A stretch of 64,000 bases of DNA from Nitrosomonadales bacterium (lineage in GTDB: Bacteria; Pseudomonadota; Gammaproteobacteria; Burkholderiales; Gallionellaceae), in NCBI GenBank assembly GCA_016214695.1, contig JACRNY010000001.1, forward strand, positions 372,001 through 436,000, written 5' to 3'. Below are positions 1,754 through 21,412 of the stretch, piece by piece. The notes beneath the pieces were generated by a model that saw only the letters and a program-made list of their open reading frames with translations, was not told the origin of the DNA and did not search any database. The first letter of the stretch is position 1; every line of letters begins with the position of its first letter. The position numbers and the translations under genes are program-made.

Positions 1754-3646
1754 TCAGCTTTCCAGGTCGGATAGTTTGTGCCCGGTCAGCGCGTGCTTCA
1801 CGCTCTGGTCCATGCGTTTCTGGGCGAATTCGGTGGTGGCCTGATTCAGCGCCTCGACCGCGCGCTTGATGGCCTGGTGGTCGCTGCCGCCGATCACGGC
1901 GCGCAGGGCCTCCATGCTGGTGCGGATGCGTGCCTGCGCTGCGGCATCCAGCAATGCCTCGCCGTCCTGCTGCAGGGCGTTGTCCACCGCTTCGAGCAGC
2001 TGCGCCGCTTCTGTCTGTTGTTCGCGCAGGGCGCGTGCCTGCATGTCGTCGCGCGCATATTGCGCGGAATCTTGCAGCATGCGCGCGATCTCGTCGTCGC
2101 TCAGGCCGTAGGAAGGTTTCACCACGATGCTGGCTTCCGTGCCGCTGCTCATCTCGCGCGCGGAGACGCTGAGCAGACCGTCCGCATCGACCTGGAAAGT
2201 GACGCGGATGCGCGCCGCACCGGCCACCATGGGCGGGATGCCGCGCAGCTCGAACTTGGCCAGCGAGCGGCAATCGCTCACCAGCTCGCGTTCGCCCTGC
2301 ACCACATGGATGCTCATCGCGGTCTGGCCGTCCTTGTAGGTGGTGAACTCCTGCGCGCGTGCGCTGGGGATGGTGCTGTTGCGCGGAACGATCTTTTCGA
2401 CCAGCCCGCCCATGGTCTCGATGCCGAGCGACAGCGGGATGACGTCGAGCAGCAACCAGTCGTCGCCGCCACGGTTGCCTGCCAGCACGTTGGCCTGGAT
2501 GGCCGCACCCAGCGCGACCACCTTGTCCGGATCCAGATTGTTCAGCGGCGCCTGCCCGAAGAAGTCGCCGACCGCCTGCTGGATATGCGGCATGCGCGTC
2601 GCGCCGCCCACCATCACCACGCCCTTGACGTCCTGCGCGGTGAGCTTGGCATCGCGCAAAGCACGGCGCAGCGCCTGCAGGGTGCGCTGCACCAGATTCT
2701 GCGACATCTCGTGGAATTCGGCGCGCGTCAGCACGTTGTCGATCACCTCGCCGCTGGACAGTACGGCAGTGGCGCGCGTCTCCAGATGATCGGTCAGCTG
2801 CTCCTTGGCGGCGCGTGCATGGGTCAGCAGGGAGCGGATGTCCGGCGCCGGCAGCGCGGAAAGACCGTTCTTCTCCAGCAGCCAGCAATAGATGCGATGG
2901 TCGAAATCGTCTCCACCCAGCGCCGAGTCGCCGTTGGTGGCCAGCACTTCGAACACGCCTTTGGAAAGGCGCAGGATGGAGATGTCGAAGGTACCGCCGC
3001 CCAGGTCGTACACCGCGTAGACGCCTTCGGATGCGTTATCCAGACCGTAGGCGATGGCGGCCGCAGTCGGCTCGTTGAGCAGACGCAACACATTCAATCC
3101 GGCCAGTTTGGCCGCATCTTTGGTCGCCTGACGCTGCGCATCGTCGAAATAGGCCGGCACGGTGATGACCGCACCGACCAGCTCGCCGCCCAGCGCCTGC
3201 TCGGCGCGGACACGCAATACCCGCAGTATCTCGGCGGAGACTTCGACCGGGCTCTTCACGCCCGCCGCCGTGCGCAACTGCAGCATGCCGGGTGCCTGTC
3301 CCGAGCCTGACGAAGAAGTCTCGACGAAGCGGTAGGGCAGGTTGCTGACGTCGCCGACATCCTTGAGGCCGCGGCCCATGAAACGCTTCACCGAGACGAT
3401 GGTGTTGTGCGGGTAGGCGCTCTGCTCTTCCTGCGCGGCCTGGCCGACCAGCACCTCGCCATCCGCGGCGTAGTGCACCACGGAAGGCAGCAATGCGCAG
3501 CCCTGTTCGTCGTTCAGCACCGTGCTGATGCCGCTGCGCACGGTGGCTACAAGTGAATTGGTGGTGCCGAGGTCGATGCCGACGGCCAGGCGGTGCTGGT
3601 GCGGCGCGGCGCTGAGGCCGGGTTCTGATATCTGAAGCAGTGCCAT
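1754..3646 (-). CDS. hscA: Fe-S cluster chaperone HscA (Hsp70 family)
   Basis: Specialised Hsp70 of 630 residues that, with HscB, releases clusters from IscU to apo-proteins. The N-terminal ATPase domain shows the phosphate-binding loop [19 protein letters not shown] and GGATRMP; the second half is the substrate-binding and helical lid region, which recognises the LPPVK motif present in the nearby IscU. Start follows the hscB stop directly. The N-terminal extension before the first strand (about 20 residues) is typical of HscA and distinguishes it from DnaK. Confidence 0.96.
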
Positions 3647-20378: not shown

Positions 20379-20575
20379 AGGGCTCGGCTTCGCATGCCTG
20401 CCGCAGGTTCAGCCAACAGGGGCGAATCGCGGCACCGATTGCTAGCCCCGTCGCAAAAACCATATGATAATTATTGGTAATTGCCGCAAGGTCCGTGCTT
20501 TGCGGAAAAAGTATTACCGTTATGGCCTGCATTCCGGTTATGCTTTTTCCCTCGCCACTGAAAAGGCCCACAGTC

Positions 20576-21412
20576 ATGATCCCGTTATTCTCTGAACAAT
20601 GGATGTCCGACCTGAAGGATGCGTGGAATGCGGCGCCCCAGGTCTACGAGCCCTTGCAAAAGGCTTCGTTCTCTTCACGCGTCGGTTACGGTTTCGTCGG
20701 GGAACCCCAGCCGCGGGGCGTACTGGTCATTGAAAACGGGATGGCGGCTTCGACGCTTTCCGGAACCGACATCGGCGATGTCGATTGGGATCTGCGCGCC
20801 ACGGAAGACAACTGGAAGGGCTGGATCGAGAATGGGTTCTCCCTTTACAACCTGGGCATCGCATTCGCCTCCCACCAGCTGCAGTTCCAGAAAGGCGATT
20901 ACGCCCAGATGCTGAAGAACCCGCTGCTGAGCCGGCCCTTCGTCAGGCACTTTGAACTGTTCGAGAACATCCAGACCTATCAGACCAACTCGGGACTCCT
21001 GTACCGTCTGGGACTGAAAAAGAAGAAGGGCGTCATCGAAGCGGACACTTCCGGGCAGCGCTCCGGATTGGACCTGATGGAAGCGATCCAGGCTCATCTC
21101 AAATGGAAAACGCGTTTCCAGAGTGTCATCGATGGCGTATCGAAGGAGACCTTCAGTCCCGCGGAGGCCTATACCGATACGGCATGCGAACTGGGGAAAT
21201 GGATCCACAGCCCTTTTTCGGAGATCTTCCACGACCAGCCCCATTTTGAAAATCTCAAGAAGACCCACCTCGAGTTCCACAAACTCGCCGGGGACATCAC
21301 GATCAAGATCCAAAGCGGTTCAAAGGAAAGTCTGGATCAGTCGATAGACGAGTTCAATCGCATCTCTCGCGGCCTGATCCGGGATCTGCATGAGCTGGCC
21401 AAGTTCATGTAG
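20576..21412 (+). CDS. SCP2-like domain fused to a CZB zinc-binding domain
   Basis: 278-residue soluble protein, start chosen at ATG 20576 (earlier in-frame starts lack support). Residues ~28-130 resemble an SCP2-type lipid-binding domain (GVLVIENGMAAS, QLQFQKGDY). Residues ~170-245 carry the chemoreceptor zinc-binding (CZB) signature: H174 in AHLKWK, C204 in CELGKWI, H231 and H235 in THLEFH. CZB domains sense zinc or oxidants such as hypochlorous acid, usually attached to chemoreceptors or diguanylate cyclases. Pairing with an SCP2-like fold is unusual. No membrane segment or output domain is present. Confidence 0.72.
   Translation: MIPLFSEQWMSDLKDAWNAAPQVYEPLQKASFSSRVGYGFVGEPQPRGVLVIENGMAASTLSGTDIGDVDWDLRATEDNWKGWIENGFSLYNLGIAFASHQLQFQKGDYAQMLKNPLLSRPFVRHFELFENIQTYQTNSGLLYRLGLKKKKGVIEADTSGQRSGLDLMEAIQAHLKWKTRFQSVIDGVSKETFSPAEAYTDTACELGKWIHSPFSEIFHDQPHFENLKKTHLEFHKLAGDITIKIQSGSKESLDQSIDEFNRISRGLIRDLHELAKFM

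Follow-up and report, generated by a model that had tools for sequence, protein, structure and literature searches.

The window analysed here is a 64,000-nucleotide stretch of a Gallionellaceae genome. It carries an open reading frame for a protein in which a probably SCP2-like N-terminal domain (the N-domain) is followed by a linker and a predicted zinc-binding CZB domain (Table 1). Reading the frame directly from the DNA gave the same coordinates and frame as the preliminary description. Five full-length orthologs share 85-91% identity with this fusion, and all of them keep M1. Across 15 ortholog pairs the overall dN/dS is 0.137, and it is low in each part (0.128 in the N-domain, 0.059 in the 32-codon linker and 0.154 in the CZB part). 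The fusion gene is therefore real and under purifying selection along the whole protein, including the linker, its most conserved stretch. Contamination or an assembly artefact is ruled out because orthologs occur in other genomes, two of which (G028 and G023) are single-contig. Upstream, a stretch with ATTCCGGTTATGCT (window positions 20520-20575) is common to the window and loci L016, L017 and L019 and is absent in L018 and L020. It is possibly a promoter or operator.

Table 1. Features of the fusion gene, in window coordinates.
Feature	Position	Strand	Basis
Fusion gene, 278 aa plus stop (ATG at 20576, stop at 21410-21412)	20576..21412	+	five full-length orthologs, dN/dS
N-domain, residues 1-132, probably SCP2-like (WDLRA family)	20576..20971	+	stand-alone homologs; SCP2 evidence mixed
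Linker, residues 133-164	20972..21067	+	mean identity 0.952, dN/dS 0.059
CZB domain, residues 165-278	21068..21409	+	PF13682 match, Foldseek 3t9o_B
Putative zinc ligand H174	21095..21097	+	invariant
Putative zinc ligand C204	21185..21187	+	invariant
Putative zinc ligand H231	21266..21268	+	invariant
Putative zinc ligand H235	21278..21280	+	invariant

The genes around the fusion in the window encode SelO, DUF2938, DUF1697 and DUF3301 proteins, alongside a 372-aa frame not assigned to any family. Long flanks are available for three orthologous loci (L009-L011). In all three, MutS, DUF3301 and the 372-aa frame also lie near the fusion; DUF2938 does so in two of the three, and SelO and DUF1697 in none. 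This neighbourhood is a conserved chromosomal place without a functional clue, and no partner gene marking the fusion's output was found among the neighbours.

The C-terminal half had been read as a CZB domain with H174, C204, H231 and H235 as ligands, and both points held. The CZB profile PF13682 matches residues 174-241 (E 1.5e-11) with 44.9 bits, above its curated cut-off of 29.4. It is the sole Pfam match in the protein, in which Pfam recognises no output domain. The four ligands are unchanged in all six full-length fusion sequences, the window included, and the 19 sequences of A4, a CZB alignment, show the same set throughout. Residues 163-261 also match the NCBIfam diguanylate cyclase model PRK09894, the model of DgcZ, at 36.7 bits, below the model's cut-off of 256. 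In whole-protein AlphaFold predictions from seven sequences, the CZB region is confident from about residue 171 (block means of 68-91 pLDDT). The best PDB match of this predicted part is the CZB structure of DgcZ, 3t9o_B (Foldseek probability 1.00, E 0.05), with a TM-score of 0.65 by target. By profile and model alike, the C-terminal half has a predicted CZB fold with a ligand set of three histidines and one cysteine.

The N-terminal part is less clear-cut. The preliminary description saw an SCP2 sterol/lipid-carrier fold there and proposed profile searches and structure prediction as checks; profile comparisons give the idea weak support, but nothing exceeds curated thresholds and no confident model was obtained. 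Pfam returns no match at E<=10 for the N-domain encoded in the window, and this domain stays below the curated cut-off of PF02036 (SCP2), which matches nothing in the organism's genome, although three of 39 N-domain family members match it at E<=1 (best 0.0088). When the family profile was searched against the PDB, the SCP2 chains 2cx7 and 1wfr of Thermus thermophilus came out on top, with E-values that are not significant (0.29 and 0.40) and an alignment spanning positions 2-109 of the profile's 130. An hhalign comparison of alignment A1 with a first SCP2 set of 22 members, presumably mostly UbiT-like, gave no similarity (score 12.9, P 0.16). A second, more varied set of 16 PF02036 members, assembled after the first had failed, aligned with A7 at a score of 21.35 (P 0.0043, HH probability 8%). 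None of 200 column shuffles reached this score (maximum 16.83), and a reversed profile and a CZB profile gave 11.4 and 11.3. Structure prediction, which succeeded for the CZB part, yielded a mean pLDDT of only 48 for the N-domain alone (five near-identical sequences). The domain stayed low-confidence in the whole-protein runs with seven sequences; all these alignments held orthologous loci only, with N-domains 88-93% identical to that of the window. Among 195 Foldseek entries for the low-confidence N-domain model none was significant, and the SCP2 entries 6z1w and 1ikt stood at ranks 18 and 45 (E 3.5 and 5.1). Ten of the 19 invariant positions of the N-domain are aromatic.

An unlikely alternative is that the N-domain represents some unrelated alpha/beta fold and is no hydrophobic-ligand carrier, and that the RefSeq SCP2 name of two homologs is an over-annotation. 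The missing Pfam match of the window domain would fit this, as would the 36 of 39 family members that miss PF02036 at E<=1, the structure search without a significant match and the failed comparison with the UbiT-like set. Against it stand the A7 alignment with the varied set, whose score no shuffle reached, and the two Thermus chains heading the PDB list over most of the profile. Taken together, the sequence comparisons point to an N-domain that is probably SCP2-like.

Full-length fusions were found in six of the 149 relatives searched (own genome included), all from the window's own genus. In a seventh carrier, G012, the halves are split between two contigs, each half lying at a contig end, which brings the count within the genus to 7 of 34 genomes, one of them split. 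The N-domain family, by comparison, is a stand-alone protein of about 135 aa. Matches occur in 76 of 369 class genomes, or 74 once two weak rows (G319 and G444) are left out. In a draw across the phylum, 45 of 398 genomes matched at E<=0.1, 41 of them at E<=4e-30 (a count that includes two partial matches and the own genome) and four weakly. Judged by frame length, matches outside the genus in these two draws lie in open frames of less than 270 aa, and are therefore too short for the fusion, with three exceptions: a frame of 789 codons with an internal stop, and two frames with a weak match, of 1890 and 424 codons. Viral contigs and phages contained no relatives of the N-domain; the viral contigs held five CZB loci.

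The N-domain tree unites the fusions in one clade (98/100), and the genes nearest to it are stand-alone ones from three genomes of the same family (nodes 84/93 and 85/89). In the CZB tree they again form a single clade (100/100), which adjoins, with modest support (80/74), a group of single-domain CZB proteins, most of which start near MGFFS-LFG. Judging from these relationships, the two halves are related to two separate gene families. The simplest reading is that a stand-alone SCP2-like gene and a 'CZB-only' gene would have joined once, within one Gallionellaceae genus.

The surroundings of the stand-alone relatives were surveyed in 66 N-domain loci, which are best-scoring hits rather than a random sample; most have flanks of 1.5 kb, and some are ended by contig ends. 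In 44 of the 66, the N-domain gene is followed on its own strand by a homolog of RND periplasmic adaptors, with no more than 477 bp between match ends in 42 of these 44. In two cyanobacterial plasmids the distance is 832 and 941 bp, with a rhodanese gene between. Of 11 longer regions (L168-L174, L176-L179), 9 continue with an RND permease homolog; in L174 the permease was not picked up among the open reading frames, and L177 is without the adaptor. The permease is annotated in both cyanobacterial plasmids. A NodJ-like ABC-2 permease homolog also occurs in 17 of the 66 loci. The order SCP2-like gene, RND adaptor, RND permease recurs in L168-L173, L176, L178, L179 and L110-L111, and some of these loci are preceded by an ABC ATPase (identified by eye) and an ABC-2 permease, or by an ArsR gene. 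ParA-like ATPases lie near the stand-alone N-domain genes in L171 and L173, the latter also with a sulfur globule protein. The three-gene set looks like an undescribed export module. In the N-domain tree, all RND-linked genes fall on the other side from the fusion, and none of the eight stand-alone genes on the fusion's side has an RND link. The own genome lacks a close RND adaptor, its RND adaptors reaching at most 32% identity.

The N-domain family is also associated with dsrA, a gene of sulfur metabolism. This gene (TIGR02064 over cut-off) is present in 55 of 74 N-domain carriers compared with 57 of 295 other class genomes, an odds ratio of 12 (Fisher p 1e-18) that is uncorrected for phylogeny. 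Counted by family the figures are 32 of 38 and 26 of 145, likewise uncorrected and with the total of 183 families inferred. For comparison, the odds ratio is 2.6 between CZB genomes and dsrA, and 5.7 between N-domain and CZB genomes. We infer that dsrA works oxidatively in the N-domain carriers. Within the genus, where 24 of 34 genomes have dsrA over cut-off, the gene does not separate the carriers (5 of 7 fusion genomes, 19 of 27 others). The own genome has dsrA over cut-off on the same contig (G000:C2:449346-450596), about 13 kb past the window's end, and the organism therefore carries the Dsr pathway.

Other sulfur-related neighbours are sparser. Sulfur globule proteins (PF17228) account for 2 of 116 neighbouring open reading frames scanned at 59 N-domain loci. 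They also account for 2 of 10 proteins from the longer regions, one in L173, which is also among the 2 of 116, and one in L118. The L118 protein (2501-3037, minus strand; E 6.2e-12) is encoded about 1 kb away from L047, a stand-alone N-domain gene that the N-domain tree places on the same side as the fusion. PF17228 had no match in the 34 genus genomes, in a search that matched in no control either. In G066 and G039, two genomes of the same family, a stand-alone N-domain gene sits behind a gene for an SQR-like flavoprotein that falls below the cut-off of NCBIfam SQR_III. As a fusion-linked marker this flavoprotein is uninformative, because close copies (68-73%) occur in 28 of the 34 genus genomes; a match at E<=1e-20 occurs in 33. 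The RND adaptor and SQR-like neighbours of the stand-alone relatives are consistent with a cargo that is hydrophobic or redox-active. For the fusion itself, the RND-exporter and dsrA context of these relatives is indirect evidence only.

We tentatively propose, as a reading with somewhat less than an even chance, that the fusion is a two-domain regulatory protein, probably soluble, in which the CZB half gates a hydrophobic-ligand carrier according to zinc or redox state. The gating is proposed by analogy with published CZB proteins; zinc binding, cargo and output are likewise part of the hypothesis. In the available text on DgcZ, the CZB domain controls the effector joined to it, and the protein is active when free of zinc (PMC8262984); a 2026 preprint proposes, in the part available, that CZBs such as that of McpA read redox through available zinc (PMC13370339). 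By the same logic, the CZB half would dimerise and bind zinc through its three histidines and one cysteine. Zinc could be lost through a redox-dependent change in available zinc or through attack on Cys204, and its loss would change the shape of the CZB half. The conserved linker may pass this change to the SCP2-like half, which would then take up or release a hydrophobic cargo (a lipid, quinone or sulfur species) or, alternatively, dock on the membrane.

The direction of signalling could also be reversed, with the SCP2-like half sensing a hydrophobic ligand and the CZB half pairing, as a modulator, with the CZBs of chemoreceptors or other signalling proteins in the same cell. The 2.7 Mb genome offers potential partners, with nine CZB matches of which the fusion is one. 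Some of the nine belong to long frames (390 to 749 aa). Pfam's failure to find an output domain in the fusion also favours such an adaptor, as do the homodimers that CZB domains form according to the available text of PMC8262984. This is nevertheless rather improbable, given that the CZBs of the fusions make up a clade of their own, distant from those of the 390-, 392- and 495-aa frames, and that a scan of five neighbouring window genes revealed no chemotaxis domain. Several other CZB matches of the genome lie in short frames resembling single-domain CZB proteins. A purely structural zinc, with the CZB half as a constitutive dimerisation handle for a carrier that senses nothing, would suit the subfemtomolar zinc affinity reported for DgcZ (PMC8262984, in part) but is quite unlikely, since the full ligand set including the reactive cysteine is retained and the CZB proteins treated in the available parts of PMC8262984 and PMC13370339 respond to zinc or oxidants.

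The gated-carrier proposal can be extended to physiology, in a form that we regard as highly doubtful: a zinc- or redox-gated carrier that moves a hydrophobic cargo, sulfur or lipid, in sulfur- and iron-oxidisers, from a family that would serve sulfur oxidation together with RND exporters. SCP2-like carriers would then deliver to, or receive from, RND exporters, and in the Gallionellaceae fusion sulfide, polysulfide or oxygen levels might switch cargo traffic via the CZB half. The fusion carriers are some iron- and sulfur-oxidising bacteria. Through its dsrA association and RND-export neighbourhood, the N-domain family offers a testable case for an unrecognised component of sulfur metabolism.

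In the open-licence PMC literature, we noticed neither an SCP2-CZB protein nor a connection between SCP2 and RND systems or sulfur globules, and found no study of the N-domain family of about 135 aa. In the available part of PMC6397845, 'sterol' belongs to the family name Sterolibacteriaceae. The available part of PMC11267869 does not mention 'sterol', and a term search of the main text of PMC8788666 returned nothing.

Among known systems, the SCP2 family (PF02036) is represented by T. thermophilus TT1886 (2cx7, 1wfr), which is similar in length to the N-domain. An N-terminal LF.E.W stretch of the N-domain aligns weakly with TT1886, and a KLKF..GD segment aligns weakly with PF02036 members. 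Unlike that family, the N-domain has its own WDLRA signature and many invariant aromatics. Homologs occur in three cyanobacterial plasmid records; in two of them the protein bears the name 'SCP-2 sterol transfer family protein', and the remaining record is unannotated. Such stand-alone proteins, for example those of Pseudanabaena plasmids, are homologous to the N-domain over its full length (35-41% identity) and, unlike the fusion, are without a CZB domain.

On the CZB side, the fusion keeps the three-histidine, one-cysteine ligand set of the PF13682 proteins DgcZ, TlpD, McpA and 'CZB-only'. The CZB proteins nearest to it have a single domain and come from the same genus (about 40-43% identity). 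The partner domain is what differs, being probably SCP2-like rather than MCP, GGDEF, EAL or CheW. According to the available text of a survey of 10,140 CZB sequences, most act in chemotaxis or c-di-GMP turnover (PMC8262984); coupled to a carrier-like domain, this redox or zinc sensor would have another kind of output. None of the seven subgroups described there includes SCP2, in keeping with the preliminary description of the pairing as a new form. A protein of this type could be filed inside the survey's 'CZB only' class (27.1% of surveyed CZB proteins), because Pfam is blind to the N-domain. The fusion places a known sensor in a new architecture and does not amount to a new kind of system.
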